A stretch of 46,762 bases of DNA from Oscillospiraceae bacterium Zagget6 (GTDB lineage: Bacteria; Bacillota; Clostridia; Oscillospirales; Oscillospiraceae): contig MSHH01000001.1 in NCBI GenBank assembly GCA_001941075.1, positions 1 to 46,762 on the forward strand, given 5' to 3'. Shown piece after piece: positions 12,983 through 30,846 of the stretch. The position numbers were made by a program, and so were the translations under genes. Each line of letters opens with the position of its first letter. The first letter of the stretch is position 1. A model generated the notes under the pieces. The model was given only the letters and a program-made list of their open reading frames with translations, did no database searches and was not told the origin of the DNA.

Positions 12983-13489
12983 ATGATTCGTGATATTGTA
13001 GAAAAAGGCGACCCCATTTTGAGCAAAAAGTGCCACCCCGTCACCCGGTTCGACAAAAAACTGGGCCGGATGCTGGACGACCTGACCGAGACACTCAAGG
13101 AGTCCGGCGGGGTGGGCCTGGCCGCGCCGCAGATCGGCATTTGCCGCCGGATGGTGGTGGTGATGAACGCCAACGAGGAGATCATCGAGCTGGTGAACCC
13201 GGAGATCGTCTCCACCTCCGGGGAGCAGACCGGCTATGAGGGCTGTCTCTCTCTGCCCGGCATGTACGGGGCCGTCACCCGCCCCATGACGGTGCGGGTC
13301 AAAGCCCAGGACCGCAACGGCGAGTGGTTCGAGGTGGAGGACACCGAGCTGACCGCCCGGTGCTTCTGCCACGAAATTGACCACCTGGACGGCCATATGT
13401 TCGACGAGCTGTGTGACCGGCTCTATACCAGCGAGGAGCTGGACGAGATGGAGGCCGAAAAAGAGGCTGAGGAGCAGAAAGAGCAATGA
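12983..13489 (+). CDS. def: Peptide deformylase
   Basis: Removes the formyl group from nascent proteins; a metalloenzyme of 168 aa. The three signatures are present: GGVGLAAPQIG (about residues 44-54), EGCLSLPG and CHEIDHLDG. The Cys of the second and the two His of the third are the metal ligands. The C-terminus is very acidic (MEAEKEAEEQKEQ). It starts at ATG 12983 with AAAGGA upstream, and its stop overlaps the fmt start (ATGA). This couples the enzyme that removes formyl groups to the one that adds them. Confidence 0.97.
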   Translation: MIRDIVEKGDPILSKKCHPVTRFDKKLGRMLDDLTETLKESGGVGLAAPQIGICRRMVVVMNANEEIIELVNPEIVSTSGEQTGYEGCLSLPGMYGAVTRPMTVRVKAQDRNGEWFEVEDTELTARCFCHEIDHLDGHMFDELCDRLYTSEELDEMEAEKEAEEQKEQ

Positions 13490-14397
13490 AAATCGTCTTT
13501 ATGGGTACCCCGGACTTCGCTGTGCCGTCGCTGAACCGGCTGCTGGCCGACGGCCATCAGCTGGCCGCCGTCTACACCAACCCGGACAAGCCCAAAAACC
13601 GGGGCATGAAGCTGACCCCCAGCCCGGTCAAAGTGGCGGCGCTGGCGGCGAACGTGCCGGTCATCCAGCCTCGCTCCCTCCGGGACGAGGGCGTTTTGGA
13701 GGAGCTGGCCGCGCTGGAGCCGGACCTCATCGTGGTGGCCGCCTACGGCAAGCTGCTGCCCGATGACGTGCTGGCGCTGCCCAAATACGGCTGCATCAAC
13801 GTCCACTCCTCTCTGCTGCCCAAGTACCGGGGGGCGGCCCCCATCAACTGGGCCATCCTCAACGGGGAGAAGGAGACCGGCGTCACCATCATGTATATGG
13901 CCCACGCCCTGGACGCGGGGGACATCATCGCCCAAGCTGCCACCCCCATCGGGCCGGAGGAGGACGCCGCTGCCCTCTACACCCGTCTGGCGGACTTGGG
14001 GGCGGAGCTGCTGTCCCAAACCGTGGCGGACATCGCCGCTGGCACCGCCGGGCGCGTCCCCCAGGACGAGGCTCAGCACACCTACGCCCCCATGCTCAGC
14101 CGGGAGCTAAGTCCCATCGACTGGAGCCGGACGGCGGAGGAAATTCACGACCAGATCCGGGGCCTGGTCCCCTGGCCTGCCGCCACCTTCGAGCTGGAGG
14201 GCAAGACCTTCAAGGCTTACGCCTCCGTCGTTGCGGCAGAGACCACCCAGGCCGACCCCGGCGCGCTGCTGGGCGGCGACAAAGGCGGTATCCGGTTCGC
14301 CTGCGGCGGCGGAACGGTGCTGTGTATCACCGAATTGCAGGCCCCCGGCAAAAAACGGATGAAGGCCGCCGATTTTCTGAGAGGACACAAGCTGTGA
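13486..14397 (+). CDS. fmt: Methionyl-tRNA formyltransferase
   Basis: Formylates initiator Met-tRNA using 10-formyl-THF. Length 303 aa. It begins MKIVFMGTPDFAVPSL. The formyl-folate-binding and catalytic region has NVHSSLLPKYRGAAPINWAI (Asn-His ... ) and HALDAGDII. The C-terminal OB-like tRNA-binding domain starts near residue 205 and ends KRMKAADFLRGH. It overlaps def by 4 nt. A 40-nt gap with GAGGG leads to rsmB. Confidence 0.97.
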   Translation: MKIVFMGTPDFAVPSLNRLLADGHQLAAVYTNPDKPKNRGMKLTPSPVKVAALAANVPVIQPRSLRDEGVLEELAALEPDLIVVAAYGKLLPDDVLALPKYGCINVHSSLLPKYRGAAPINWAILNGEKETGVTIMYMAHALDAGDIIAQAATPIGPEEDAAALYTRLADLGAELLSQTVADIAAGTAGRVPQDEAQHTYAPMLSRELSPIDWSRTAEEIHDQIRGLVPWPAATFELEGKTFKAYASVVAAETTQADPGALLGGDKGGIRFACGGGTVLCITELQAPGKKRMKAADFLRGHKL

Positions 14398-14437
14398 ACC
14401 ATTCTTCTGATTTCTCCGGCGGAGAGGGCCTCCGCCC

Positions 14438-15764
14438 ATGAGCAGCCAGCCGAAAACCGCCCGGGAGACCGCCTTTTACGTGCTGGAGCGGGCCAAGAGC
14501 GGCGCCTGGTCGGACAGCGCCCTGAAAAGCGCCATCCGCTCCAACGACCTGTCCCCACGGGACAGCGCCCTTTGCAGCCGCATCTGCTACGGCGTGCAGC
14601 AAAACCAGCTGCTGCTGGACTATTGGATCTCCTGCTTCTCCCGGGTGCCGGTGGAGAAGCTGGAGAGCGCCGTCCTCACGGCGCTGCGGATGGGTCTGTA
14701 CCAAATCGCCCTGATGGACCGGGTGCCGGAGCGGGCGGCGGTCAACGAGTCGGTGGAGCTGGTGAAGCGGAGCAGCCGCAACCCCAACTCCCCCCGCCTG
14801 ACCAATGGGATTCTGCGGGCCTTTTGCCGCCGGGAGGGAGACTGGCCCCAGGCCCCCTCTCTCTCCGTTCAATACAGCCATCCCCAGTGGCTGGTGAACG
14901 CCTTCGCCGCGGAGCTGCCGGGCGGGGACGTGGAACCCCTGCTGGCGGCGGACAACAGCCAGCCGCCCACCACCGTCCAGGTGAACACCCTGCGCACCAC
15001 CACAGAGGAGCTGGCAAACGCCCTGGCGGAGCGGGGTGTGGGGGTGCGGCTGCACCCCTGGCTGCCGGACTGTCTGGAGCTGACCGGCACCGGTGACCTG
15101 GAGGAGCTGCCCCAGTTCCGGGCGGGAGACTTCACTGTGCAGGACGCCGCCGCAAAGCTGGCGGTGCTGGCGGCGGACCCCCAGCCGGGGGACCGGGTGC
15201 TGGATGCCTGCGCCGCGCCGGGGGGGCAAGAGCTTCGCCGCCGCCGTGCAGATGCAGAACCGGGGGGAGCTGTTCTCCTGCGACATCCAGCCCAAAAAGG
15301 TGCAGCTCATCCGGGACGGGGCCAAACGGCTGGGCATCTCCATCCTGACGGCGGAGGTGCGCAACGGCAAGGCGTTCTATGAGGACTGCGGGTCGGGGTA
15401 CGACCTGGTGATGGCCGATGTGCCCTGCTCCGGGCTGGGCATCATCCGCAAAAAGCCCGACATCCGGTACAAAAACCCCAACTCTCTGGGAGATTTGCCC
15501 GACGTGCAGCGGGCCATTCTGGACAACGTCTCCCGGTACGTACGCCCTGGCGGGACGCTGCTCTACGCCACCTGCACCGTCCTGCGCCGGGAGAACCGGG
15601 ACGTGGTGGAAGGTTTTTTGGTAGACCACCCGGCGTTCCGGCTGGAGCCGTTCCGTCTCCCCGGCCCGGTGGGGGATGTGCCGGAGGGCATGACCACCCT
15701 CTGGACCCACATCCACGGCACAGACGGGTTCTTTATGGCAAAGCTGAGGAAAGAACATGACTGA
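14438..15764 (+). pseudogene. rsmB: 16S rRNA (cytosine-967-C5)-methyltransferase RsmB, frameshifted at a G7 tract
   Basis: RsmB methylates C967 of 16S rRNA with SAM. Here the frame breaks. The 5' part (from ATG 14438) has the NusB-like RNA-binding domain (about residues 5-140) and the start of the methyltransferase domain, reading to DACAAPGG at about 15225 before going out of frame and stopping at 15382. The 3' part continues in the +1 frame with GGKSFAAAVQM, DVPCSGLGIIRKKPDIRY (catalytic Cys) and YATCTVLRRENRDVV (second Cys), ending at 15764. One G too many in the run at 15220-15226 explains the break; with six G the protein would be a normal 441 aa. A sequencing error, phase-variable tract or true mutation are all possible. 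The end overlaps rlmN by 8 nt. Confidence 0.88.
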
Positions 15765-16794
15765 CATCAAATCCATGAGCCGCCCGGAGCTGGCCGCCTT
15801 TCTCGCGGAGTTGGGACAGCCCCGGTTCCGGGAAAAGCAGGTGTTCCAGTGGCTCCACCGGGGGGTGGAGAGCTTCGACGAGATGAGCAACCTCCCCAAG
15901 TCCCTCCGGGAGCAGCTAAAGGAGACCTGCACGCTGACCGTCCCCCAGGTGGCCCGGAAGCAGGTCTCAAAGCTGGACGGGACAATCAAATATTTGTGGG
16001 AGCTTTCCGACGGAAACTGTGTGGAATCGGTATTGATGCGCTACAAACATGGCAATACTATCTGTGTGTCCTCCGAGGTGGGGTGTCTGATGGGCTGCGC
16101 CTTCTGCGCCTCCACCCTGGGCGGGCTGGTGCGGCGGCTCACTCCGGCGGAGATTCTCGACCAGGTGATTTTTACACAGAAGGATTCCGGTCTGCCCATC
16201 TCCAACATCGTCATGATGGGCATTGGGGAGCCGCTGGACAACTACGACAACGTCATGCGGTTCCTCACGCTGGTCAACGACCCGGATGGGATGAACATCG
16301 GGATGCGGCACATCTCCCTCTCCACCTGCGGGCTGGTGGAGAAAATCGACCGGCTGGCAGACGAGGGATTGCAGCTGACCCTCTCCGTCTCCCTCCACGC
16401 CCCCGACGACGCCACCCGCTCCCGGCTGATGCCGGTGAACCGGGCCGTGGGCGTGGACCGGCTGATGGAGAGCTGCCGCCGGTACTTCGACAAGACCGGG
16501 CGGCGCATTTCCTACGAGTACGCCATGGTGGACGGCGTCAACGACAGCGACTGGCAGGCGGACCGGCTGGCCGCGCTGCTCAAGGGGCAGGGCGCACATG
16601 TGAACCTGATACCGCTCAACAACGTGGACGAAAGCCCCCTGAAACCCAGCCGCCGGGTGGCCGCTTTCCAGAAGCGGCTGGAGGGCCACGGCGTCACCTG
16701 CACCGTCCGGCGGAAACTGGGCGGGGACATCGACGCCTCCTGCGGCCAGTTGCGCCGCAAGGCGATGGGCGCGGCAGAGCAGAATCATCACTGA
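15757..16794 (+). CDS. rlmN: Dual-specificity RNA methyltransferase RlmN
   Basis: A radical-SAM enzyme that makes m2A2503 in 23S rRNA and m2A37 in some tRNAs. Length 345 aa. The iron-sulfur motif is CLMGCAFC (C-x3-C-x2-C) following SSEVG. MMGIGEPLDNYDNV is the GGEP-type SAM-binding motif. HISLSTCGLV and SLHAPDD are conserved family blocks. The C-terminal cysteine used for methyl transfer is probably in GVTCTVRRKLGGDIDASCGQL. It is coupled to the end of rsmB. Confidence 0.96.
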   Translation: MTDIKSMSRPELAAFLAELGQPRFREKQVFQWLHRGVESFDEMSNLPKSLREQLKETCTLTVPQVARKQVSKLDGTIKYLWELSDGNCVESVLMRYKHGNTICVSSEVGCLMGCAFCASTLGGLVRRLTPAEILDQVIFTQKDSGLPISNIVMMGIGEPLDNYDNVMRFLTLVNDPDGMNIGMRHISLSTCGLVEKIDRLADEGLQLTLSVSLHAPDDATRSRLMPVNRAVGVDRLMESCRRYFDKTGRRISYEYAMVDGVNDSDWQADRLAALLKGQGAHVNLIPLNNVDESPLKPSRRVAAFQKRLEGHGVTCTVRRKLGGDIDASCGQLRRKAMGAAEQNHH

Positions 16795-16819
16795 AAACAC
16801 ATCAGAGAGGGTGAGTGTT

Positions 16820-17533
16820 ATGGACATATGGGGCATCACTGACCGGGGCAAGGTGCGCCGGCAGAACCAGGACGCCTTTTATAAGTGGACCAACGGGACG
16901 CTGGCGTTTGCCGTGGTCTGCGACGGCATGGGCGGCGCGCTCTCCGGCAACATAGCCAGCGCGATGGCGGCCCAGCGCTTCGTACAGGCGCTCAGCGCCG
17001 GAGTGGGAACGCCGGAGGAGCGGCTGACCCTGGCGGCGGCGGTGGCCAACGATGCGGTCTATCACCGGGCCACGCAGGACATCAACTGCCGGGGCATGGG
17101 CACTACGTTGGTGGCGGCATTTGCAAAATCGGATGAGGCTCACATCCTCAACATCGGGGACAGCCGGTGTTACCACCTCTCCGCCGGCGAGATCTGGCAG
17201 GTGACCCGGGACCACTCTCTGGTGGCCCAGCTGGTGGCCGCAGGCCAGATCACCGAGGAGGAGGCCCAAAACCACCCCAACCGCAACATCATCACCCGCG
17301 CCCTGGGCACCGAATCCCAGGTGCGGGGCGACCTCTACCGGGAGGAACTCCAGCCGGGGGACCGGCTGCTGCTGTGCTCCGACGGGCTGAGCAACGAGGT
17401 CACGAAGGAAGAACTGGCCCAAATCGCGGGCAGCGGCGACCTGCGGGACTGCTGTGAAAAACTGTTGCAGCTGGCGCTGGAGCGGGGCGCGCCGGACAAC
17501 GTCACTGCCGTGATTCTGGCCGCAGACGGCTGA
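16820..17533 (+). CDS. prpC: PP2C-family Ser/Thr protein phosphatase (PrpC/Stp)
   Basis: A cytosolic Mn/Mg-dependent phosphatase (237 aa) that reverses PrkC phosphorylation. ATG 16820 is preferred (AGAGGG 8 nt upstream); GTG 16811 overlaps that site. The metal-binding PP2C motifs are visible: DRGKVRRQNQD, VVCDGMGG near residues 34-41, GMGTTLVAA, NIGDSRCYHL, LLLCSDGLSNEV, and the terminal APDNVTAVIL. The kinase gene follows after 19 nt, the standard phosphatase-kinase pair of Firmicutes. Confidence 0.95.
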   Translation: MDIWGITDRGKVRRQNQDAFYKWTNGTLAFAVVCDGMGGALSGNIASAMAAQRFVQALSAGVGTPEERLTLAAAVANDAVYHRATQDINCRGMGTTLVAAFAKSDEAHILNIGDSRCYHLSAGEIWQVTRDHSLVAQLVAAGQITEEEAQNHPNRNIITRALGTESQVRGDLYREELQPGDRLLLCSDGLSNEVTKEELAQIAGSGDLRDCCEKLLQLALERGAPDNVTAVILAADG

Positions 17534-17552
17534 ACAAAGGGGAGCTTGTACG

Positions 17553-19643
17553 ATGGATCAGTACATAGGAAAAATGCTGAACGACCGATACGAAATACTG
17601 GACGTGCTGGGCGTGGGCGGCATGGCGGTGGTCTACAAGGCCAAATGCCACCGGCTCAACCGGCTGGTGGCCGTCAAGATCCTCAAGCCGGAGCTGGCCG
17701 CCGACCCGGAAATCCGTAGTCGTTTCCACGACGAGAGCAAGGCCGTGGGCATGATGAACCACCCCAACATCGTCAACGTCTTTGACGTGAACCAGGACGG
17801 GGACATCGACTATTTCGTCATGGAGCTGGTGGAGGGCATCACCCTCAAGCAGTATATCAAAAAGCGGGGCGGCGTGCTGAACTGGCGGGAGGCCCTGCAT
17901 TTCAGCACCCAGATCTTGCAGGCCCTGGGCCATGCCCACAGCCGGGGTATCGTCCACCGGGACATCAAGCCCCAGAACATCATGGTCCTCCGGGACGGCA
18001 GCGTCAAGGTGGCGGACTTCGGCATCGCCCGTATCGCGGACTCTCAGCGCACCATGACCCGCGAGACCCTGGGCAGCGTCCACTATATCTCGCCGGAGCA
18101 GGCCAAGGGCAGCGAGGTAGACGCCCGCAGCGACCTCTATTCCGCCGGTGTGGTGCTCTACGAAATGCTCACAGGCCGCCTGCCCTACGAGGGGGATACC
18201 CCCGTGGCGGTGGCGGTCCAGCACATCAACTCCATCCCCCTGGCCCCCAGGGAGCTGAACCCGGAAATTCCCAGGGGCATGGAGCAGATCATCATGAAGG
18301 CCATGGCCCAGGACCGGGAGCTGCGCTACCCGAACGCGGAGGCCATGCTCAGCGACCTGGAGGCGTTCCGCAAAAATCCCGACATCGTTTTTGACTACCA
18401 GGACCTCTGGATGCTCACCGAGGTCCCGGTCGTCACGCCCTACCAGCCGGAAGAAGTGGAGGTCAAGAACGACTCCACAGAGGAGGACGAGGAAGAGGAC
18501 GAGGAGGAGACCGGCAGCGGAAAACGCACCGCCCTTATCATCGGCGGGGTGATTTTGGCCATTTTGCTGGTGATTTTCCTGATTTTCCGTATGCTGTGGG
18601 CCACCCTCTTTGCCGGTATCTTCGATTCCGGCGAGGTCTACACCGTACCCGACCTGCGGGGCATGACCTACACCGAGGCCGAGGAGTATATCTTCACCAC
18701 CGACGACCTGAACGGCCACTTCACCGTCACCATCAGCGAGGAGACAGTCTACGACGCCACCTATGACGTGGGGGAGATCGTCTCCCAGGACCCGGAGAGC
18801 GGCACCTCCACCAAGGGGGACGTGACCGAGATCACCGTGGTACTCTGCGCCGAGCCGGAGGAGGAGACCGAGCTGATCATGCCCAACATCGTGGGCCAGG
18901 AGTATTCCGAATGGGCGTCCACCCTCAGCGAGGATTACCACGTCACCGTGAAGTACAACCCCCAGTATTCTTCGGATTACGACGAGGGCCTCATCATCTC
19001 CACCGACCCGGTGGCGGGGACCACCCTGACCGAGGGCCAGACCGTCACCCTGACCTACAGCCGGGGGGAGAAGATCACCACCGTCACCATGGTCTCCCTC
19101 TACGGCATGACGGAGAACAAAGCCAAGGAGACCATCGAGGAGCTGGGCCTGACCACCGGCAGCGTCACCACCGTTACCAGCAGTGAGACGGCGGGGACTG
19201 TGGTGTTCCAGAGCGTCAAATCCGGCGCGGAGGTGGAGCTGGGAACTGCGGTGAACCTGCAAATCAGCTCCGGCCCCCAGCCGGAGGATGAGGAGCAGCC
19301 GGAGGAGGAAGAAGTGGAAACCGAAACCGGCGGCCAGCAGACGGAGACCGGCGACAACAATAGCAACAATAGCAATAATAGCAACAACAGCAACAACAGC
19401 AACACGAATCACACCGACGACGAGGAAGAAGAGGAAGAGGACGAGATCCACACCATTGTGGTGACCATGCCCTCTGGCCGGACGACGACCTCCACCATTT
19501 CCGTCCGGGTGAACGGCATCAACTACTACTCCGCCACCATCCCCGCCGACCAGAGCCAGGTCTCCGTGGAGTACAAGGGCACCATCGAATCCCTGGAGGT
19601 GCTGGTGGACGGCAGCAGCTATTCGGAGTACACGGTCCAATGA
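17553..19643 (+). CDS. prkC: PASTA-domain Ser/Thr protein kinase (PrkC/PknB family)
   Basis: A membrane kinase of 696 aa that senses muropeptides and controls division, germination and wall stress. The kinase domain (about 10-272) has VAVKIL with Lys42, HRDIKPQN (Asp137), DFG (155-157) and an activation loop TMTRETLGSVHYISPEQ. An acidic juxtamembrane stretch (about 308-320) precedes one membrane helix (about 326-348). Three extracellular PASTA repeats follow (about 361-432, 438-505, 506-573; note VPDLRGMTYTEAEEYI). The tail is unusual: a Glu-rich then Asn/Ser repeat linker (about 575-630) leads to a final beta-rich domain of about 70 aa, which I do not recognise. The stop overlaps rsgA (ATGA). 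Confidence 0.95.
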   Translation: MDQYIGKMLNDRYEILDVLGVGGMAVVYKAKCHRLNRLVAVKILKPELAADPEIRSRFHDESKAVGMMNHPNIVNVFDVNQDGDIDYFVMELVEGITLKQYIKKRGGVLNWREALHFSTQILQALGHAHSRGIVHRDIKPQNIMVLRDGSVKVADFGIARIADSQRTMTRETLGSVHYISPEQAKGSEVDARSDLYSAGVVLYEMLTGRLPYEGDTPVAVAVQHINSIPLAPRELNPEIPRGMEQIIMKAMAQDRELRYPNAEAMLSDLEAFRKNPDIVFDYQDLWMLTEVPVVTPYQPEEVEVKNDSTEEDEEEDEEETGSGKRTALIIGGVILAILLVIFLIFRMLWATLFAGIFDSGEVYTVPDLRGMTYTEAEEYIFTTDDLNGHFTVTISEETVYDATYDVGEIVSQDPESGTSTKGDVTEITVVLCAEPEEETELIMPNIVGQEYSEWASTLSEDYHVTVKYNPQYSSDYDEGLIISTDPVAGTTLTEGQTVTLTYSRGEKITTVTMVSLYGMTENKAKETIEELGLTTGSVTTVTSSETAGTVVFQSVKSGAEVELGTAVNLQISSGPQPEDEEQPEEEEVETETGGQQTETGDNNSNNSNNSNNSNNSNTNHTDDEEEEEEDEIHTIVVTMPSGRTTTSTISVRVNGINYYSATIPADQSQVSVEYKGTIESLEVLVDGSSYSEYTVQ

Positions 19644-20518
19644 CGGGCATCATCATTCGCGCCCTCAGCGGCTTTTACGATGTGGACTGCGGCGGTGAAG
19701 TGATCCGCTGCCGCGCCCGGGGCAAGTTCCGTTATACGAAGGAGTCCCCCCTGGTGGGGGACCGGGTGTCCGTCACCCCCACAGAGGCGGGAGCGGGCCG
19801 CCTGGATGAGATTTTGCCCCGGAAGAACGCCTTTCAGCGGCCCGCCGTGGCCAATATGGACCAAATCATTCTCATCGCGTCAGAGGCCATCCCCGTCACC
19901 GACCCCTTTTTGGTGGACCGGGTGGCGGCGCTGGCGGAGGGAAAGCACTGTGAGCCGGTGGTGGTGGTCAACAAGTGCGACCTGGCCGACGGCAACGCGC
20001 TGGCGGACATCTACCGGGCGGTGGGCTATCCCACCTTCCAGGTCAGCGCCGCCACCGGCCAGGGCATCGAGGAGCTGCGGGAGATTCTGACCGGCAAGGT
20101 CAGCGTGTTCACCGGCAACTCCGGCGTGGGCAAGTCCAGCCTGCTCAACGCCCTGGACCCCACCGCGCAGATCCCCACCGGGGAGGTCAGCGAAAAGCTG
20201 GGCCGGGGCCGCCACACCACCCGCCATGTGGAGCTGTTCCGCCTGGGAGAAGGGGCCATCGTCGCGGACACGCCGGGGTTCTCCTCCTTCGACACCGAGA
20301 CCCCGGAGCTGCTGGACAAGGAGCAGCTGGCGGACGCCTTTCGGGAATTCCGCCCCTACCTGGGCCAGTGCCGCTATGTGGGCTGCTCCCACACCAAGGA
20401 AAAGGGCTGCGCCGTCCGGCAGGCCCTGAAAGAGGGAAAAATCTGCCGGAGCCGCTATGACAGCTACCTCCGGCTGTATCAGGTGGCGAAGGAGTATAAG
20501 CCGTGGGAGAAAAAGTGA
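19640..20518 (+). CDS. rsgA: Ribosome small-subunit GTPase RsgA
   Basis: A late 30S-assembly GTPase, 292 aa. An N-terminal OB-fold (about 1-65) precedes a circularly permuted GTPase domain, shown by motif order: VVVNKCDLAD (G4) comes before TGNSGVGKSSLLN (G1), then DTPGFSSFD (G3). The C-terminal zinc knuckle is in GQCRYVGCSHTKEKGC. The gene lies in the conserved prpC-prkC-rsgA order. The usual next gene, rpe, is missing here; a family A / family M repeat block follows instead. Confidence 0.96.
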   Translation: MTGIIIRALSGFYDVDCGGEVIRCRARGKFRYTKESPLVGDRVSVTPTEAGAGRLDEILPRKNAFQRPAVANMDQIILIASEAIPVTDPFLVDRVAALAEGKHCEPVVVVNKCDLADGNALADIYRAVGYPTFQVSAATGQGIEELREILTGKVSVFTGNSGVGKSSLLNALDPTAQIPTGEVSEKLGRGRHTTRHVELFRLGEGAIVADTPGFSSFDTETPELLDKEQLADAFREFRPYLGQCRYVGCSHTKEKGCAVRQALKEGKICRSRYDSYLRLYQVAKEYKPWEKK

Positions 20519-20610
20519 GCTGTTAGCTATTAGCTGCTAGCTGTTAGTCAGGTACTGCATACCATAAGCGTAGAGCTTATAGGTATGGCTTTAATGACGT
20601 TCAGCCGTGT
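20517..20610. repeat. Family A repeat, left half
   Basis: The stretch starts inside the rsgA stop codon with AGCTGTTAGCTATTAGC and GCTAGCTGTTAGTCAGG. A core part follows with its own hairpin (CATACCATAAGC-GTAGA-GCTTATAGGTATG, 20557-20587). No right end is seen; a family M element begins at 20614. Confidence 0.7.
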
Positions 20611-20613
20611 GCT

Positions 20614-20876
20614 GGAAACCCCTCCGTCACGGCTTACGCCGTGACACCTCCCCTTTCAGGGCAGGGAGCGTAGCGGAAGTGCCGCTTGACGGCGGAGGCG
20701 AGAGGTGTGGTCTATTACGGAACGACGCTTCTTTATAGGAGAAGTTGTACTATTGAATAAATTACATTCCAAATCTCTTGTATTTTGAGTAAAAAATAGA
20801 CCAAACGACAAGCACTAGCCCCCTTGCCTCCCCTGAAAGGGGAGGGGAACCATGCGAAGCATGGTGGAGGGGTTTC
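20614..20876. mobile_element. Family M element, complete copy (263 bp, MITE-like)
   Basis: Left end: GGAAACCCCTCCG, hairpin TCACGG-CTTA-CGCCGTGA, CACCTCCCCTTTCAGGG, then an extra hairpin module (GGAAGTGCCGCTTGACGG). The right end (20817-20876) is the inverted counterpart, CCTTGCCTCCCCTGAAAGG onward, with hairpin ACCATGC-GAA-GCATGGT and GGAGGGGTTTC. The roughly 107-bp AT-rich core shares GTGGTCTATT, AAGTTGTAC and ACAAGCACTA with the copy at 30524. There is no ORF. The inverted ends suggest a non-autonomous element mobilised in trans; I cannot see a target-site duplication. Confidence 0.75.
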
Positions 20877-20942
20877 TCGCTGAAATTACCAACAAGACTG
20901 GTTCAAGGGGACCACCGAAGAACCCAAGAAGGAGAACAAACC

Positions 20943-21587
20943 GTGGGAGAAAAACAGGCCATCATCATCGGCGCGGCCCCCTGCGCCAGCTGGGACTACT
21001 TAGCCCCTTACCGGGGGGAGGACGACTTTGTCATCTGCGCCGACGGCGGGCGCAACAGCGCGGCGCTGGCCGGGCTGGAGCCAAACTGGTACGTGGGGGA
21101 CGGGGATTCCGGCGGCAGGCCGGAGGGCCTGCCCTCCATCATGCTACCCATCGAGAAGGACTTCACCGACCTGGAGGTGGCGGTCCACCAGGCCCTGCGC
21201 ATGGGCTACCGGCGGCTGCTGCTGTGCGGCTGCTCCGGGGGCCGGGCCGACCACTACCTGGCCAACTGTTTCCTGCTGGAGCAAATTCACGAGGCCGGGG
21301 CGGAGGGCCTGCTGCTGGACGAGCGCAACGAGATTCGCTATCTGTCACCGGGAAGCATTTCCATTGCAAATACGCCACCTTTTTGCTATATTGGTATCAT
21401 CCCCCTTGACCGGACGCTGCGGGGAGTGACCCTGCGGGGCGTCAAGTACCAGATCACTGACACCACCCTCCGCCGGGACGCGACCCTGGCCGTCAGCAAC
21501 GAGATTTTGCCGGGCCAAACGGCGGAGATCACCGTCAAAGAGGGCTGCGCCCTGCTGGTGCGCAGCGACCCACAGCGCCAACCGTGA
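20943..21587 (+). CDS. thiN: Thiamine pyrophosphokinase
   Basis: Converts thiamine plus ATP to thiamine diphosphate. Length 214 aa. The start is GTG 20943 with AAGGAG 8 nt upstream. Motifs of the TPK catalytic domain are ADGGRNSA (about 30-37), VGDGDS (about 50-55), KDFTDLEVAV and LLCGCSGGRADHYLAN. The C-terminal beta domain contains the product-binding SPGSISIAN-type stretch and RGVTLRGVKYQI. It is preceded by the repeat block and followed after 37 nt by the GH25 gene. No TPP riboswitch is visible upstream. Confidence 0.92.
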   Translation: MGEKQAIIIGAAPCASWDYLAPYRGEDDFVICADGGRNSAALAGLEPNWYVGDGDSGGRPEGLPSIMLPIEKDFTDLEVAVHQALRMGYRRLLLCGCSGGRADHYLANCFLLEQIHEAGAEGLLLDERNEIRYLSPGSISIANTPPFCYIGIIPLDRTLRGVTLRGVKYQITDTTLRRDATLAVSNEILPGQTAEITVKEGCALLVRSDPQRQP

Positions 21588-21624
21588 AAAGAGAGAACCA
21601 GACCCCAATAAAAGGAGCAACCCC

Positions 21625-24018
21625 ATGAAGCGACCCCATATCCTCCGCAAACTGCTGTCCCTGGTCCTGACCGCCGCCCTGCTGGTGGGGACAGCCTCGC
21701 CGCTGGCGGAAGCCTACACCCACGCCAGCGAGTACAGCAGCGGCTACACCATCTACGATGGCATCGACGTTTCCAAGTGGCAGGGGACCATCAACTGGTC
21801 CAAGGTGGCGGCGGCGGGCATCGACTTTGTGTTCATCCGTTGCGGTTACACCTCCTCCAGCAGCTTCACGCTGAACGAGGACCCGCAGTTTGAAACCAAT
21901 CTGAAAAACGCCCAGAAGTACGGCATCAAAGTGGGCGTTTACTACTTCTCTCAGGCCAAATCCACCTCCGAGGCCAAGAAGGAGGCCGCTTATGTGCTGA
22001 AGCTGCTCAGCGGCTACAGTCTGGACCTGCCGGTGGCCTTCGATGAGGAGAACGCAGGGGGACGCTTCAAGTTCTCCAGCTTTACCAAGACCCAGTGTAC
22101 CAACATCGCCCTGGCCTTCTGCGCCGCCATCGAAGCCGGAGGCTACGACGCCTGCGTCTACAACAGCGTCTCCACGTTCAGCGGTAGCGGGGCCAAGTAC
22201 AACCCCACCACTATCCTCAACAAGGGGTACAAGCTGTGGGTGGCCCGGTACAACAAGACGGCCAGCGACTCCAGCTACAGCGTCAGCGGGTATACATACT
22301 GGCAGTATTCCTCCACCGGCTCCGTCAAGGGGATTTCCGGCAACGTGGACCTGGATTTCTGGTACTCCGAGCTGGAGCTTTGCGTGGAGGTGGACGACGA
22401 CACCGCCATCACCGCCCTGTCCCTGAACAAGAGCAAAGCGTCCCTCTCTCCGGGGGATACCCTCTCCCTGACCGCTACGACGACGCCCTCCGGCACGTCT
22501 GACCCCGTCTGCTGGTCCTCCAGCGACAGCAGCGTGGCCTATGTGGACGACAGCGGCACCGTCACCGCCGTCCAGAGCGGCACGGCCACTATCACCGCAT
22601 CTTCCTCCAGAGGCGACGTGACGGCCACCTGCAAGGTGACGGTGTCGGGCGCCGACCCGGACGAGGTCATCGTTGTCACCTACGGCGACGACGCCTTCGA
22701 TTTGGACAACAAGACCGCCCTCAGCCCCACCAGTTACCAGGCGCTGAGCGATTCTGTGCTCACCGTCACCCGGGACGGCGCGACGGCCATCAACGGCGCA
22801 GGCGTCACCGATGTAACGGCGGTGGTCTCCACCGTCTCCGCCAGTGCCGTCCAGGAGGACGCGGCGGCGGATTCCAGTGCCGCTGAAACAGAGGAAAACG
22901 AAGAAGCTGCCGAGACGGAGGAAGAAATGGAACCGGACGCCGCCACTGACCCCGCCGACGAAGCCGAGGGCGACAGCTCCGCCGCCGAAACGGTGGACGC
23001 AGAAGCGGCGGAAGAAGCCAAGACGGAGGCCGAAGCAACCGCAGCGGCGGAGGCCGAGGACACGGATGCTGACGCGGAGGATGCTCTACAGGCGGCAGCC
23101 GAAGCCGGGGAAACGGTAACGGCCCAGGCCGCAGAAGCGGACGCGGAGACCGAAGCCCAGGAGGAAACCACCTCCGACGCTTCTGACGAGGCGGAAACCA
23201 CGGTCACGGCCCTCAGCACCACCGAGACAAAGACCATCCGGGTGGTGGTAGAGCGGCTGAGCCTGACAAACGCCACTCTCACGCTGAAAAGCACCTCCCT
23301 GACCTACACCGGTTCAGCGGTGACGCCCACCGTGTCCTCCCTCAAGGTGGGCAGCCTCAGCGTCCCCTCCAGCGGCTACACGCTCTACGCCAACAACAAC
23401 ATCAACCGGGGCCAGGCCACCGCCACCGCCGCGGGAGTAGGCAACTACAGCGGGGCGGTCACCACTACTTTCTACATCCGCTCCAGCCAGACCATCTCTG
23501 TCAGCAAGACCAGCTACAGCGTGGCCCTGGGCAGCAGCGCCATCTACCTACAGGCGGCGAACGTCTCCCAGTACGGCGGCAAGCTGACCTATTCCAGCAG
23601 CAAGACCTCCGTGGCCACCGTGTCCAGTTCGGGGAAAGTCACCATTAAGGGGCTGGGCGTCACCTACATCACCGTCACCGCCGCCAAGAACGCCCGCTAT
23701 GCCAAGACCACCAAGAAAATCAAAATCAAAGTGGTCCCCAAAAAGGTGACGCTTTCCTCCGTCTCGGCGGGGAAGAAGAAGTTTACCGTCAAGTGGAAAA
23801 CCACCACCGGCTCCGGCTATCAAATTCAATACTCCACCTCCAGCAGCTTTAAGACCTACAAGACCGTTACCGTCTCCGGCAAGAGCAAAAGCTCCAAGAC
23901 CATCAGCGGCCTGAAATCCAAGAAAAAGTATTATGTCCGGGTCCGGGCCTACTACAAAACCAGCGCGGGCACCACCTACGGCGCCTGGAGCAGCAAAAAA
24001 TCCGTGAAAACGAAGTGA
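21625..24018 (+). CDS. Secreted GH25 lysozyme-like protein with Ig-like and Fn3-like domains
   Basis: A 797-aa exported protein. The signal peptide is about residues 1-30 (LLSLVLTAALLVGTASPLAEA). The GH25 muramidase domain (about 41-245) has DGIDVSKWQG (catalytic Asp about 48) and LPVAFDEEN (Asp140/Glu141-142). A Big_2-type Ig domain (about 252-345) is followed by a low-complexity Ala/Glu/Asp stalk (about 395-535). Then come a tandem beta domain beginning LTNATLTLKSTSLTYTGSAV, a second Big_2-like domain (SKTSYSVALGSS...) and a Lys/Ser-rich Fn3-like C-terminus. There is no sortase or anchor motif, so it is probably released or bound to the wall by charge. AAAGGAG lies 7 nt before ATG. A peptidoglycan-remodelling role is inferred. 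Confidence 0.9.
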   Translation: MKRPHILRKLLSLVLTAALLVGTASPLAEAYTHASEYSSGYTIYDGIDVSKWQGTINWSKVAAAGIDFVFIRCGYTSSSSFTLNEDPQFETNLKNAQKYGIKVGVYYFSQAKSTSEAKKEAAYVLKLLSGYSLDLPVAFDEENAGGRFKFSSFTKTQCTNIALAFCAAIEAGGYDACVYNSVSTFSGSGAKYNPTTILNKGYKLWVARYNKTASDSSYSVSGYTYWQYSSTGSVKGISGNVDLDFWYSELELCVEVDDDTAITALSLNKSKASLSPGDTLSLTATTTPSGTSDPVCWSSSDSSVAYVDDSGTVTAVQSGTATITASSSRGDVTATCKVTVSGADPDEVIVVTYGDDAFDLDNKTALSPTSYQALSDSVLTVTRDGATAINGAGVTDVTAVVSTVSASAVQEDAAADSSAAETEENEEAAETEEEMEPDAATDPADEAEGDSSAAETVDAEAAEEAKTEAEATAAAEAEDTDADAEDALQAAAEAGETVTAQAAEADAETEAQEETTSDASDEAETTVTALSTTETKTIRVVVERLSLTNATLTLKSTSLTYTGSAVTPTVSSLKVGSLSVPSSGYTLYANNNINRGQATATAAGVGNYSGAVTTTFYIRSSQTISVSKTSYSVALGSSAIYLQAANVSQYGGKLTYSSSKTSVATVSSSGKVTIKGLGVTYITVTAAKNARYAKTTKKIKIKVVPKKVTLSSVSAGKKKFTVKWKTTTGSGYQIQYSTSSSFKTYKTVTVSGKSKSSKTISGLKSKKKYYVRVRAYYKTSAGTTYGAWSSKKSVKTK

Positions 24019-24062
24019 TAGAGCTATTAGCCGTTAGCTTTTAGCTGTTAGCCAGAGACTGC
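24018..24062. repeat. Family A repeat, left end only
   Basis: AGCTATTAGCCGTTAGC then TTTTAGCTGTTAGCC, starting at the GH25 stop codon. No matching right end is seen. Confidence 0.65.
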
Positions 24063-24111
24063 TAACTTTTGTGGCTGTCCCTTTGAATCAACCTTGTCTG
24101 TTATCGTAGTT

Positions 24112-24164
24112 GGAAACCCCTCCACCATGCTTCGCATGGCGGCGCAAGCCGCGACGGAAGGGTT
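24112..24164. repeat. Family M repeat, fused-end copy
   Basis: GAAACCCCTCC, hairpin ACCATGC-TTC-GCATGG, second hairpin GCGGC-GCAA-GCCGC, then GACGGAAGGGTTTC. Two different hairpins are enclosed by the inverted ends without a core, as at 1555. The flank TCCCTTTGAATCAACCTTG on the left is the reverse of the usual right flank. Confidence 0.75.
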
Positions 24165-24221
24165 TCTCGCTGGAAGCATCGACACAGATGAGCCAACGAA
24201 ATAACCAACCAAAAACCACAG

Positions 24222-24250
24222 GCACATTTCGCCGCCTCCCAACGTATACT
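24222..24250 (+). promoter_or_regulatory. Possible SigmaE-like promoter of the spore-coat cluster
   Basis: GCACATT (24222-24228) resembles the SigmaE -35 GCATATT, and TATACT (24245-24250) resembles the CATACA-type -10, 16 nt apart. The match is partial and the spacing slightly long. It is supported mainly by its position before mother-cell coat genes. Confidence 0.3.
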
Positions 24251-24303
24251 GAGCCATAGAGGAACCACTCTAAACCTGCTCAGCGCGAAGGGAGGCGGTC
24301 TTT

Positions 24304-24453
24304 TTGGGCCATTTTCGCTGTAGAAGCGGCGGCATCTGCCTGATTTCCGTGGGCATTGGCATTTGGCTGGCCATGGTGCTGCCGGTGGGGGTCATCCTGT
24401 TCGTCTCCGGGCTGACGCTGATTTTGCTGGGCTGCACCTTTTTGAAGGGGTAA
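24304..24453 (+). CDS. Small membrane peptide upstream of spoVM (49 aa)
   Basis: TTG start at 24304 behind a strong GGGAGG (24290-24295, 8 nt spacing). The product begins MGHFRCRSGG, followed by hydrophobic segments ICLISVGIGIWLAMVLPVG and VILFVSGLTLILLGC, and ends TFLKG: one hairpin of two short membrane helices. I recognise no family. It lies 14 nt before spoVM, in the same orientation and with equally good translation signals, so co-expression in the sporangium is likely. A role at the forespore outer membrane is inference only. Confidence 0.7.
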   Translation: MGHFRCRSGGICLISVGIGIWLAMVLPVGVILFVSGLTLILLGCTFLKG

Positions 24454-24467
24454 AGGGGGGAATCGCC

Positions 24468-24539
24468 GTGAAAATCGTCATTGTCCGCGCACCCAAGGCG
24501 CTGGCCGGGCTGCTCAAGGCCATCTTTCACATTCGATAA
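24468..24539 (+). CDS. spoVM: SpoVM-like spore-coat anchoring peptide (23 aa)
   Basis: GTG start at 24468 behind AAAGGGGGG (7 nt spacing). The product begins MKIVIVRAPKALAGLLK and ends in FHIR. It fits SpoVM, the 26-aa amphipathic helix that marks the convex forespore membrane and recruits SpoIVA. B. subtilis SpoVM starts MKFYTIKLPKFLGGIVRA, and the shared pattern is Met-Lys-x4-basic-x-Pro-Lys-x-Leu-x-Gly-x2-basic-Ala. The functionally important Pro9 is kept. The neighbours SipL-like and SpoIVA, its known partners, strengthen the call. It is too short for routine gene finders. Confidence 0.85.
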   Translation: MKIVIVRAPKALAGLLKAIFHIR

Positions 24540-24627
24540 GGCATAGAACCGGGCCTCGCCTCATACTCTGTCACAGAACCATGTCCGGCTGCGATTTTCT
24601 CCGCCGGGCAGGAAGGAGAGGTCGCTT

Positions 24628-26139
24628 TTGAACGTAACGCTCATTCAGGACGAGATACCCTGCTTCGCGCTGGCGCTGCACACCGCCCTGACGCGGGAGG
24701 AGACGCTGGAGATGATCGTGCCGGACGCCTGCCCGGACATTGTGGAGATCGTGGACACCGACGCCGCCGTACAGCTCCGGGGGAAGGAGTGCGCCGAGGG
24801 CTGCGTCACCCTCCACGGCGCGGTGCCGTGCAGCGTGCTCTACCGGCCGGAGGGAGAGACAGGGCTGCGGCAGCTCCGGGCGGAGCTGCCCATTCAGTTC
24901 ACCGCAGATTTGGAGGGCGTCACCGGACAGAGCCGGTGCGTCCTGCTGCCCCGGGTCACGCTGGCAGAGACCCGGGCCGTCAACCCCCGAAAAATCCTCA
25001 TCCGGGTGGGACTGTCCTTTGACCTGACCGCCTACGAACCCACCCTCCTGCGCTGCTGCACCGGCGTGGAGGACCGGGAGACGTTGGGCATCGAGGCCCG
25101 GACGGAATCCTACAGCGGAACTTTCGCCGTCCACGTGGGGGAAAAGGTGTTTCCTTACGCCGATGAGGTGCAAATTCCCGGCAGCAAGCCCCCCATGGAG
25201 GAGCTGTTGCGGGCGCGGTGCCGCCCCTTCTGCACCGAGAGCCGTCTGCTGGGCGGCAAGCTGGTGTTCAAAGGGGGGACAGCCATTCAACTGCTCTACC
25301 TCAGCCCGGAGGGACAGCTTTGCACGGCGGACTTTGAACTGCCCTTCTCCCAAATCGCGGACGTGGGGCCGGTGGCGGAGGACGCGGACTTTCAGGTGGA
25401 CTGTGTGGTCACAGGCAGCGAAATCTACCCCCTGGACGGGGAAGGCCGGGGCCTCTCGGTGGAGCTGGAGCTGCTGGCCCAAATCGTGGTGCGGGAAAAC
25501 CGCAAGCTGTCCGTCGTCACCGACGCCTACAGCATCCGCCACGCAGGAGCGCCGGAGTTTGAGACGTATTCCCTCCCCCAGCTGGTGGAGCGGGGCCTTC
25601 GGCGGCAGACGGTGCGGGAGGTCATCGAGACGGCGGCCCTGCCTCAGGGCATCTGCGATGTGCGGGCCTATGTCAGCCAGGTCATTGCCAGTGGAAAGGA
25701 ACTGACCGCCGAGCTGCGGCTGGCGGTGCTGTACCAGACGGAGGAGGGAGGCTTCGCCCAGGCCCTCCGGCAGGCGGCGGTGAAGTGTCCGGTGGAGCGG
25801 GAGGCGGATACCCTCTGTGTGGCGGGCTGCACCGTGCCGGAGGTGGACGCCTCCGCCGCGCCCGGCGGCGTGGAGGTGCGGCTGGGGGTGGACTTCCAGC
25901 TGCTCCTGCTGCGGCAGAGCCGGGTGTTTGGCCTGGCAGCCTTCGCCCTGAACACCGACCAGCCTCTGGAGCAGGAGGGCCAGCCCTCTATCGTGCTTCG
26001 GCAGATGGCGGAGGGAGAGTCTCTGTGGGAGATCGCCAAAACGTACCTGACCACCCAGGCGGAGATCGAGCAGGCCAACGGCCTGGAGGGGGGACCGGCT
26101 GCGCCGGGGCAGATGCTGCTCATCCCCCGGAAACGGTGA
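24628..26139 (+). CDS. sipL: DUF3794 (SPOCS) and LysM protein, SipL-like spore-coat morphogenetic factor
   Basis: 503 aa, with TTG start 24628 behind GGAAGGAG (9 nt). Most of the protein consists of three SPOCS/DUF3794 repeats (about 20-150, 165-290, 310-430; note ETLEMIVPDACPDIVEIVDT at the start). The C-terminal 45 residues are a LysM domain (MAEGESLWEIAKTYL ... EIEQANGL ... PGQMLLIPRK). This architecture is that of C. difficile SipL, which binds SpoIVA through its LysM domain to build the coat basement layer. Location 14 nt upstream of spoIVA and just after spoVM fits that role. There is no signal peptide, so it acts in the mother-cell cytosol. Confidence 0.88.
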   Translation: MNVTLIQDEIPCFALALHTALTREETLEMIVPDACPDIVEIVDTDAAVQLRGKECAEGCVTLHGAVPCSVLYRPEGETGLRQLRAELPIQFTADLEGVTGQSRCVLLPRVTLAETRAVNPRKILIRVGLSFDLTAYEPTLLRCCTGVEDRETLGIEARTESYSGTFAVHVGEKVFPYADEVQIPGSKPPMEELLRARCRPFCTESRLLGGKLVFKGGTAIQLLYLSPEGQLCTADFELPFSQIADVGPVAEDADFQVDCVVTGSEIYPLDGEGRGLSVELELLAQIVVRENRKLSVVTDAYSIRHAGAPEFETYSLPQLVERGLRRQTVREVIETAALPQGICDVRAYVSQVIASGKELTAELRLAVLYQTEEGGFAQALRQAAVKCPVEREADTLCVAGCTVPEVDASAAPGGVEVRLGVDFQLLLLRQSRVFGLAAFALNTDQPLEQEGQPSIVLRQMAEGESLWEIAKTYLTTQAEIEQANGLEGGPAAPGQMLLIPRKR

Positions 26140-26153
26140 GAGGAGGAACGGCA

Positions 26154-27629
26154 GTGGAGAGGCAGCTTTACGAGGACATCGCCCAGCGGACAAACGGGGA
26201 CATCTACATTGGGGTGGTGGGGCCGGTCCGCACCGGCAAATCCACCTTTATCAAGCGGTTTATGGAGACGCTGGTCATCCCCAACATCGACAACGTGTAC
26301 CGCCGGGAGCGGGCCAGGGACGAACTGCCCCAGAGCGGCTCCGGCAGGACCATCATGACCGCCGAACCCAAGTTCGTGCCGGAGGAGGCGGTGCAGGTGG
26401 AGCTGGAGGGGGGCGCCAGCTTCTCCGTCCGGCTTATCGACAGCGTGGGCTATCTGGTGAACGGGGCGGTGGGCCAGACCGAGGACGACGCGCCGCGAAT
26501 GGTCACCACCCCCTGGTTCGACCACGAAATTCCCATGACCGAGGCGGCGGAGGTGGGGACCCGAAAGGTCATCGCGGAACACTCCACCATCGGCATCGTG
26601 GTGACCACCGACGGCACCGTGGCGGGTATCCCACGGGAGGACTACCAGGAGCCGGAGGAGCGGGTCATTCGGGAATTACAGGCCCTGGGCAAGCCCTTTC
26701 TGGTGCTGCTCAACGCCGACGACCCCGCAGACCCCCAGACGGTGGCCCTGGGCCGGGACATCGCCGCCCGGTACGGCGTCACCTGTCTCCCGGTGAACTG
26801 CCTGACCCTGGACGAGGAGGATGTCAGCGGCATCATTCGTGCGGTGCTGTACGAGTTCCCGCTGAAAGAGATGGACCTGTACCTGCCCAGCTGGGTGGAC
26901 GCCCTGCCCTACGGCCACCCCATCAAGGAGGAGCTGTACGCCGTCATCCGGGAAACCGCCGGGCAGCTCCACCGCATTCGGGAGGCCCGGGACGTGACCG
27001 CCGCCATGGGTCAGTGCGCTTCCATCAGCCGGGCGGAGCTGACCGCCATCAGCCTGGGGACCGGCGTGGCACAGGCCACGCTGGAAATTCCACGGAGCCT
27101 GTTCTACGCCACCCTCAGCGAGCAGTCGGGCTTTCAGGTGAAGGACGACGGGGACCTGCTGGCGCTGCTGACCTCCCTGGCCCACGTCAAGGGGGAATAC
27201 GACAAGGTGGCTCAGGCCCTGACCGACGTGCGGGAGGAGGGCTACGGCATCGTCATCCCCTCCATCGACGAGCTGACGTTGGAGGAGCCGGAGATCGTCA
27301 AGCAGGGGGGCCGCTACGGGGTGCGCCTCCGGGCCAGCGCTCCCTCCATCCACATGCTCCGGGCGGACATCGAGACGGTGATCTCCCCCATCGTGGGCAG
27401 CGAGAAGCAGTCGGAGGAGATGATCAACTACCTGCTCCAGGAGTTCGAGGGGGACACGAGGAAGATTTGGGAGTCCAACATCTTCGGCAAGTCCTTCCAC
27501 GAGCTGGTCAACGAGGACTTGCAGGGCAAGCTGACCCGTATGCCGGAGGACGCCCGGAAAAAGCTGCGGGAGACGCTGGAGCGCATCATCAACGAGGGCA
27601 GCGGCGGGCTGATCTGTATTATTTTGTGA
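26154..27629 (+). CDS. spoIVA: Stage IV sporulation protein A (coat ATPase)
   Basis: SpoIVA polymerises with ATP hydrolysis over the forespore surface to form the coat basement layer. Length 491 aa (B. subtilis 492). I chose GTG 26154 with AGGAGG 7 nt upstream, giving MERQLYEDIAQRTNGDIYIG. The Walker A loop is GPVRTGKST (23-31, Lys29). The TRAFAC-type ATPase domain continues to about residue 240, with TTDGTVAGIPREDY and LLNADDP. The C-terminal region that contacts SpoVM ends GGLICIIL. It is the last gene of the small-peptide, spoVM, sipL, spoIVA group and is followed by a hairpin at 27639. Confidence 0.97.
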   Translation: MERQLYEDIAQRTNGDIYIGVVGPVRTGKSTFIKRFMETLVIPNIDNVYRRERARDELPQSGSGRTIMTAEPKFVPEEAVQVELEGGASFSVRLIDSVGYLVNGAVGQTEDDAPRMVTTPWFDHEIPMTEAAEVGTRKVIAEHSTIGIVVTTDGTVAGIPREDYQEPEERVIRELQALGKPFLVLLNADDPADPQTVALGRDIAARYGVTCLPVNCLTLDEEDVSGIIRAVLYEFPLKEMDLYLPSWVDALPYGHPIKEELYAVIRETAGQLHRIREARDVTAAMGQCASISRAELTAISLGTGVAQATLEIPRSLFYATLSEQSGFQVKDDGDLLALLTSLAHVKGEYDKVAQALTDVREEGYGIVIPSIDELTLEEPEIVKQGGRYGVRLRASAPSIHMLRADIETVISPIVGSEKQSEEMINYLLQEFEGDTRKIWESNIFGKSFHELVNEDLQGKLTRMPEDARKKLRETLERIINEGSGGLICIIL

Positions 27630-27638
27630 CGGGGGACG

Positions 27639-27680
27639 GGCCGGGAATTGCGTGAAAAGCGCGGTTCCCGGCCTGCGGTT
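27639..27680 (+). terminator. Probable terminator after spoIVA
   Basis: GGCCGGGAA (27639-27647) pairs with TTCCCGGCC (27665-27673) and is followed by TGCGGTTTTC. The loop is 17 nt and the T-run short, so this is a moderate candidate. Confidence 0.5.
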
Positions 27681-27744
27681 TTCAGTGCATATTGTTCGGT
27701 ACAGTAGAAGTTTTCCGCAAAAAACAACCGTCCCGTAATCTCCT

Positions 27745-27887
27745 GCCCCCCTTGCCGCCCCTGTGAAGCGCTGGCCGAATGGCCAATTCCTCTTTAGCGC
27801 AAATGCGGGGAGCTATGGCCTTTAGGCCATGCGAGTCGCAAAGGGGAGGGGGGCCGCCGCCTTTAGGCGGTGGCGGAGGGGTTTTCA
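27745..27887. repeat. Family M repeat, right end with extra hairpins
   Basis: CCCCCCTTGCCGCCCC, then two added hairpins (CTGGCC-GAAT-GGCCA and ATGGCC-TTT-AGGCCAT), then AAAGGGGAGG, hairpin CCGCC-TTTA-GGCGG and TGGCGGAGGGGTTTT. Core-like sequence (GTACAGTAGAAGTTTTCCGC) precedes it at 27699-27718. Apart from a terminator and a promoter, the 27630-28013 gap holds nothing else. Confidence 0.7.
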
Positions 27888-27922
27888 CCTCCCCATTCCC
27901 CCCACTTTTCCATCAAAAGGAC

Positions 27923-27953
27923 TTGACGCGCCCCCGCCCCAATGTGCTACACT
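27923..27953 (+). promoter_or_regulatory. SigmaA promoter with extended -10 for the aldo/keto reductase
   Basis: TTGACG at 27923-27928 and TGCTACACT (extended -10, hexamer 27948-27953) with a 19-nt spacer. The start codon lies 60 nt downstream. Confidence 0.65.
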
Positions 27954-28013
27954 ATAAAAAGGAACAAGCGCGCAACCCACACTATGGCTGGATACGCAAA
28001 AGGAGAATATGTT

Positions 28014-29132: not shown

Positions 29133-29141
29133 GAGACCACT

Positions 29142-30485: not shown

Positions 30486-30523
30486 AGAATGAAATAACAA
30501 TTTCCTTGCTTGGGCCTTGTGCT

Positions 30524-30812: not shown

Positions 30813-30846
30813 CGCCGGAATGATTGACAAGGCGGAGCAAAAACCG

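Follow-up and report, generated by a model that had tools for sequence, protein, structure and literature searches.

A membrane micropeptide gene, spoVM, sipL, and spoIVA in a probable mother-cell sporulation operon of an Oscillospiraceae bacterium

We analyze a window of 46,762 nucleotides (nt) from Oscillospiraceae bacterium Zagget6 (assembly GCA_001941075.1, contig MSHH01000001.1, positions 1 to 46,762), a gut bacterium whose genome is available as a fragmented assembly, 76% complete. Within this window, 4 genes follow one another on the forward strand at the coordinates that a first-pass annotation of the DNA had assigned to them: p49, which encodes a hydrophobic membrane micropeptide, then spoVM, sipL, and spoIVA. 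The intergenic gaps are 14 nt (p49/spoVM), 88 nt (spoVM/sipL), and 14 nt (sipL/spoIVA), and the leader of p49 holds a promoter-like element nested in an inverted repeat (Table 1). Positions 24221-27629 probably constitute a mother-cell sporulation operon that is shielded from vegetative read-through and makes p49, SpoVM, SipL, and SpoIVA together.

The identities of SipL and SpoIVA are unambiguous. SpoIVA scores 693 bits against TIGR02836, for which the cut-off is 459.9, and its ATPase, middle, and C-terminal domains match PF09547, PF20438, and PF20439, respectively. SipL has 2 PF12673 (SPOCS) stretches followed by a C-terminal LysM domain at residues 462-500. The 23-amino-acid (aa) frame ahead of sipL matches the NF033436 SpoVM_broad model at 30.9 bits (E 2e-7; cut-off 31); a Pfam search of the frame gave no match, and a search of the source genome with the Pfam family PF08183 found no SpoVM. 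The frame is conserved: in sequence pairs of 70-90% DNA identity, the ratio of nonsynonymous to synonymous change (pN/pS) is 0.23 in frame, against 1.27 and 2.90 in the other 2 frames. No better SpoVM turned up elsewhere in the 76%-complete genome, where the only other match is noise (11.8 vs 22.7 bits). Pro9 is present, as it is throughout our 28-sequence SpoVM alignment (A2); it is reported as the sole residue invariant across SpoVM homologues (PMC5607322). By sequence comparison, then, the frame is SpoVM, a gene under purifying selection. All 3 names given in the first-pass annotation are supported: SipL and SpoIVA by their Pfam and TIGR02836 matches, and SpoVM by conservation and a match just under the NF033436 cut-off.

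Like the SpoVM of Bacillus subtilis and Clostridioides difficile, the window peptide is short and basic, with Lys2 and Pro9. It differs from the B. subtilis protein in length (23 vs 26 aa) and in carrying Val6 and Leu15 in place of Ile6 and Ile15 (PMC5607322). What had been taken for a Shine-Dalgarno sequence of spoVM's own is just a G-run, AGGGGGG; translation coupled to that of p49, with its stop codon 14 nt upstream, is as likely. Among 300 genomes of the window's family, NF033436 matches 173 at E<=1, some of them by chance, and only 19 pass the cut-off; annotation by this cut-off will therefore miss many SpoVM genes, many of which fall just under it, and the threshold looks too high for the family.

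Table 1. Features of the p49-spoVM-sipL-spoIVA locus and its upstream neighborhood (positions in the window)
Feature	Positions	Strand	Description
-35 element, AC type, GGCACATT	24221..24228	+	AC at 24224-24225
Hairpin left arm, GCCGCCTCCC	24231..24240	+	inside promoter spacer
-10 element, CGTATACTG	24243..24251	+	
Hairpin right arm, GGGAGGCGGT	24290..24299	+	doubles as putative p49 Shine-Dalgarno sequence
T-run after hairpin	24301..24305	+	runs into p49 TTG start codon
p49	24304..24453	+	49 aa, TTG start; hydrophobic membrane micropeptide, new family
spoVM	24468..24539	+	23 aa, GTG start; NF033436 30.9 bits plus conservation
sipL	24628..26139	+	503 aa, TTG start; Pfam SipL/SPOCS (2 stretches) plus LysM
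spoIVA	26154..27629	+	491 aa, GTG start; TIGR02836 693 bits, three Pfam SpoIVA domains
Housekeeping genes def, fmt, rsmB-like, rlmN, PP2C phosphatase (prpC-like), prkC-like kinase, rsgA, thiN (20943-21587)	12983..21587	+	

The cluster recurs in relatives. We fetched named loci by their SpoIVA, taking the best 80 of 233; they include Oscillibacter, Flavonifractor, Pseudoflavonifractor, Intestinimonas, and Lawsonibacter. A sipL gene is present in 72 of the 80, and in 69 of these 72 a SpoVM open reading frame (ORF) adjoins its start, directly upstream; the match is weak in locus L087 (E 4.5e-4) and 1.5e-9 or better in the rest. The 3 exceptions are L099, L100, and L121, the last 2 of which are cut by contig ends. 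Some of the 8 loci without sipL are short; 4 others of the 8 (L079, L110, L130, L136) have 4.7-6 kb of upstream sequence without the gene. The distance from sipL to spoIVA is below 200 nt in 53 of the 72 loci, 200-1000 nt in 7, and at least 1 kb in 12. Thus, the idea of a single module, advanced in the first-pass annotation, finds support in the kept spoVM-sipL linkage and in a spacing that fits an operon. The most widespread link is that of p49 to spoVM, followed by that of spoVM to sipL; the sipL-spoIVA link is looser. Across 60 loci from a wider class sample, every sipL seen beside p49/spoVM comes from a family of the window's order (f2, L324; f3, L320; f5, L291, L292, L303, and L305), and 2 same-order loci lack it (L310 of f5 and L319 of f4); our sipL profile draws mostly on the window's family, and remote sipL genes may escape it. 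In families f21, f42, and f23, spoIVA lies within a few kb of p49/spoVM, as viewed by ORF listing alone.

The first gene of the cluster belongs to a family of its own. In an alignment of 71 p49 sequences (A3), length ranges from 46 to 54 aa, 2 hydrophobic stretches recur, Pro27 and Gly43 are invariant in all 71, and both ends carry net positive charge in 57. In the reading frame of p49, pN/pS is 0.27; the other 2 frames give 0.94 and 2.45. AlphaFold2 predicts helices at residues 8-25 and 29-48, with a mean predicted local distance difference test score of 69 and a predicted template modeling score of 0.36. When the 71 members were compared with Pfam and NCBIfam at E<=0.01, the best family in each matched 3 and 1 of them, respectively, and no PDB chain matched p49 at E<=1. 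On these comparisons, p49 is a new conserved micropeptide family outside Pfam, NCBIfam, and PDB.

Its association with spoVM extends well beyond the window's family. A profile of 22 p49 sequences from that family alone (A1) gave 98 matches in 94 of the 300 family genomes: 54 directly precede a listed SpoVM, at a distance of 11-241 nt, 39 come from genomes with no listed SpoVM, and 5 are elsewhere. In a class sample of 341 genomes, the same profile gave 62 matches outside the window's genome, in 61 genomes; 40 are directly upstream of SpoVM (21-115 nt, in 14 other families), 1 is elsewhere, and 21 come from genomes in which SpoVM gave no match. The wider profile A3 finds p49 in 143 of the 341 genomes, similar to the 146 with a detectable SpoVM (E<=0.01), and some of its weakest matches sit inside long frames and are probably due to chance. 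SpoVM is also found in 84 of the 143, and p49 is directly upstream of it in 79 of these, which span 30 families, the window's own included. The A3 rows come partly from 28 class-sample genomes and from the window's own, so this adjacency count holds partly by construction, while the A1 count is free of it. Since 30 families of the class have p49-like genes immediately before spoVM, the guilt by association first proposed for this peptide is far stronger than could then have been known. A Flavonifractor-like group carries at the p49 place a diverged hydrophobic ORF, perhaps a homologue of p49, that overlaps the spoVM start codon. Separately, 2 genomes hold side-by-side p49-like matches, a possible tandem duplication (G481 C144:7900-8277 and G435 C38:10811-11182).

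The leader of p49 combines promoter elements with a terminator-like hairpin. A block matching ATATACTG at 6 or more of 8 positions occurs in 96 of 109 non-redundant p49 leaders (about 44 expected from simple base shuffles), and in 64 of these 96 an AC stands 20 nt (48 leaders) or 19 nt (16 leaders) before it. RNA spanning 24221-24315, as in read-through from upstream, has a predicted folding energy of -45.3 kcal/mol (z -6.46; equaled by none of 200 shuffles), against z -0.48 for RNA starting at 24257, which has no left arm. A GC-rich hairpin with a T-run is found in 45 of 60 leaders of the window's family, where dinucleotide shuffles would give 2.8. In 34 of the 60, against 1.4 expected, this hairpin encloses the best -10 candidate and its left arm precedes the expected start site. 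Among 49 leaders from other families, the hairpin and T-run occur in 4 (1.0 expected). Within the whole window, on both strands, a hairpin around an AC-type promoter whose -10 matches at 7 or more of 8 positions occurs once, at p49.

With a stricter -10, the nested hairpin is found in 29 of 60 family p49 leaders, against 1/82 for sipL, 1/71 for spoIVA, 0/30 for rsgA, 0/20 for prkC, 0/15 for thiN, and 0/28 for spoVM behind p49; it also precedes spoVM in 8 of 27 cases where p49 is undetected. The element thus tends to precede the first gene of the operon. Hairpins counted with or without an embedded -10 are commoner at sipL (10/82) and spoIVA (13/71). In 52 leaders, the mean folding energy is -29.3 kcal/mol with the true left arm and -21.6 with a shuffled one, 31 leaders fold better than all 30 of their own left-arm shuffles, and the mean modeled openness of the Shine-Dalgarno sequence is 0.23 with the left arm and 0.51 without it. 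Gaps in a DNA alignment of 15 leaders were too many for covariation to be counted fairly; the case for the hairpin rests on the shuffles and control genes. A sigma-70/terminator scanner with a loop limit of 8 did not report the hairpin, and an Rfam search of 20400-31200 gave a single weak chance match.

The principle of a hairpin that blocks translation of read-through mRNA is known. In the B. subtilis sigG leader, such a block is proposed for a hairpin longer than 20 bp, which cannot form in RNA from the gene's own promoter (PMC5942855). The window leader behaves alike in prediction, its hairpin arising solely in transcripts begun upstream of the promoter. It differs from sigG in the T-run behind it, in its place before a coat operon, and in enclosing the -10 in many family leaders; an instance at a p49 leader, with T-run and place before a coat operon, was not met in the accessible literature that we searched. 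Alternatively, the inverted repeat may be the operator of a dimeric regulator, or a terminator only, with no gating of translation, a reading that we hold possible and somewhat doubtful. The repeat flanks the -10 and the start site, a normal position for an operator, the T-run gives it the look of a terminator, and the Shine-Dalgarno sequence of the window opens only partially on loss of the left arm, with left-arm shuffles changing openness little across leaders. However, the arms vary between genomes yet stay complementary, unlike a fixed operator, and the right arm is the Shine-Dalgarno sequence in many genomes. A terminator alone, with the promoter embedded in it, would still shield the operon and would alter just part of the mechanism.

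Some genomes keep p49 where SpoVM cannot be detected. We examined 36 family loci, comprising 34 of the 39 without a listed SpoVM together with L224 and L242, whose listed SpoVM lay elsewhere; a SpoVM-like ORF stands beside p49 (E<0.01) in 14, and none does in 22. Among 51 class loci with p49, 7 have no SpoVM-like ORF, and 6 of these form family f25, where p49 follows thiN. A whole-genome search with profile A2 of the 28 genomes concerned (22 of the family and the 6 of f25) gave no credible SpoVM match, the best (E 0.063) lying inside a long frame. We rejected 3 family loci as SpoVM-less: the sequence of L205 breaks off 70 nt past p49, and SpoVM-like ORFs that fall slightly short of the threshold are present in L214 and L220. 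This leaves p49 without detectable SpoVM in 25 genomes, 19 of the window's family and 6 of f25, several of them incomplete assemblies; sipL begins 2-115 nt after p49 in 17 of the 19.

These genomes bear on the nature of the peptide. That p49 is a mere leader ORF, coupling translation to spoVM through a peptide without function of its own, appears improbable. The close spacing before spoVM, in the 54 family and 40 class cases alike, would suit such a role, and so would the overlap of the diverged ORF with the spoVM start codon in the Flavonifractor-like group. Against it stand the strong protein-level constraint, the 2 invariant residues, and the persistence of p49 before sipL or after thiN where SpoVM is undetected.

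The class of the promoter is suggested by comparison with sporulation genes. In C. difficile, sigma-E and sigma-K promoters share a common -10 and differ at the -35, with ATA and AC, respectively (PMC3789822). The leaders of the window's family (61) are of the AC type in 51 cases and of the ATA type in 4; the 48 leaders of other families comprise 42 with AC and 19 with ATA, of which 14 have both. Upstream regions of spoIIIAA in the window's genus (13) have the same -10 form and spacing, with the ATA type (CATA at -35) in 5, the AC type in 0, and neither in 8. The best reading of the AC-type p49 leaders, by analogy with the C. difficile difference, is a sigma-K-like mother-cell promoter. At odds with this, spoVM of C. 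difficile is sigma-E dependent (PMC5607322). A search of 32 genomes of the genus for YabG, intended for comparison with a sigma-K gene, found it in none. A vegetative sigma-A promoter, and with it an operon not specific to sporulation, has little in its favor: the TATACT/TATAAT-like -10 and the ACA-ending -35 partly fit, given sigma-A boxes of GTGACA and TATAAT in C. difficile (PMC3789822), but a sigma-70 scan found no site at the p49 promoter, the spoIIIAA regions share its -10 form and spacing as mother-cell promoters, and spoVM, sipL, and spoIVA of C. difficile depend on sigma-E (PMC5607322, PMC3789822).

Taken as a shielded mother-cell operon, the locus would work as follows. A promoter of sigma-K/sigma-E type, embedded in the intrinsic-terminator-like hairpin, would start a single transcript of p49, spoVM, sipL, and spoIVA, whose products would form the membrane-facing base of the spore coat. 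In growing cells, read-through RNA from upstream genes would fold into the hairpin, and termination or a hidden p49 Shine-Dalgarno sequence would keep the operon silent. RNA begun at the embedded promoter would lack the left arm and hence the terminator, allowing p49, then SpoVM 14 nt further on, SipL, and SpoIVA to be made. Such a compact promoter-inside-terminator design could keep a developmental operon silent during growth. The p49 product would be a two-helix membrane peptide, basic at both ends and most likely located in the outer forespore membrane, where it may help SpoVM to seat the SpoIVA-SipL layer or substitute for it where it is lost. More tentatively, and with the odds in our judgment against it, p49 might be an unrecognized core part of the clostridial coat base. 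It would then be a helical-hairpin peptide in the outer forespore membrane, at once partner of and stand-in for SpoVM as the anchor of SpoIVA and SipL.

Comparison with C. difficile sets this arrangement in context. The window encodes the same kinds of protein as the SipL-SpoIVA coat base of that species, where spoIVA (CD2629) and sipL (CD3567) have distant locus tags (PMC3789822), while in the window they adjoin. The C. difficile spoVM sits with CD25622 near rpmB (PMC5607322); that of the window, unlike the spoVM of B. subtilis and C. difficile, has sipL and spoIVA downstream. It shares with known spoVM genes its place after thiN, with 1 large extra gene and p49 between, and in other families of the class spoVM lies near rpmB. 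In 14 of 51 class loci, 2 of them without spoVM (L284, L289), a convergent rpmB-like ORF, recognized by sequence pattern, is situated downstream of p49; sipL occupies the corresponding place in the window.

The nearest precedent found for p49, and a possible relative, is CD25622, a gene of 50 aa that immediately precedes spoVM and is cotranscribed with it (PMC5607322). In size and place it resembles the 49-aa p49. It has been called unique to Peptostreptococcaceae (PMC5607322), and in the accessible literature that we searched, a small gene upstream of spoVM is mentioned only in that paper, with CD25622 named in no other. If CD25622 is a p49, the claim of restriction to Peptostreptococcaceae needs revision. 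SpoVQ/CD3457 offers a parallel to the proposed role, being a mother-cell membrane protein tied to SipL and SpoIVA; it differs as a bitopic protein, with an N-terminal transmembrane segment and a soluble part, that is reported to be specific to Peptostreptococcaceae (PMC8265636). One article asks if the role of SpoVM is the same in clostridia and if there are distant versions of it (PMC3533761), and SpoVM is largely dispensable in C. difficile (PMC5607322). For clostridia in which SpoVM is weak or absent, p49 is a concrete candidate for attaching the coat base to the forespore membrane. As a core part, if it is one, p49 would explain both the absence of SpoVM in genomes that keep p49 and sipL and the near-dispensable SpoVM of C. 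difficile.

Several observations weigh against the shielded-operon interpretation and the role proposed for p49 in it. Disruption of spoVM, or of CD25622 with polar effect on spoVM, costs C. difficile just ~3- to 5-fold in heat resistance (PMC5607322); this mild phenotype implies that p49 need not be essential and, should CD25622 be a p49, argues that it is not essential there. In the class sample, 67 of the 146 genomes with SpoVM show no p49 immediately before it, and none is detectable in one clade of the window's genus (L075, L080, L082, L083, L085, L088), where SpoVM and sipL are present. Confidence in the p49 structure model is modest. The nested hairpin is rare outside the window's family (2 of 49 leaders; 0.5 expected). 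Shuffling the left arm lifts mean Shine-Dalgarno openness just from 0.23 to 0.33, and removing it in the window raises openness from 0.00 to 0.27; such small changes argue only weakly for Shine-Dalgarno release, and in the window the block by termination may matter more. Lastly, that the source organism sporulates is presumed, its assembly being fragmented and 76% complete.

The housekeeping genes upstream of the cluster (Table 1), from def to thiN, correspond to the neighborhood of spoVM in B. subtilis, and many of the class loci that we fetched likewise have thiN and rsgA ahead of p49. The large gene between thiN and p49 (21625-24018) encodes a 797-aa GH25-Big_2-fn3 protein with an Ala/Glu-rich middle. 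Several relatives (e.g., L068, L072, L096) lack it, and there the end of thiN lies ~200-240 nt before the p49 stop codon. A 27-nt imperfect direct repeat has one copy where rsgA ends (20488-20514) and the other where thiN begins (20928-20954), and these genes overlap in L204; from these 2 observations, an insertion of ~440 bp, carrying palindromic repeats, seems to have separated rsgA from thiN, with duplication of the junction. Families of dispersed intergenic repeats also occur in the window, at 20604/30514 and at 20819/27747/30753.

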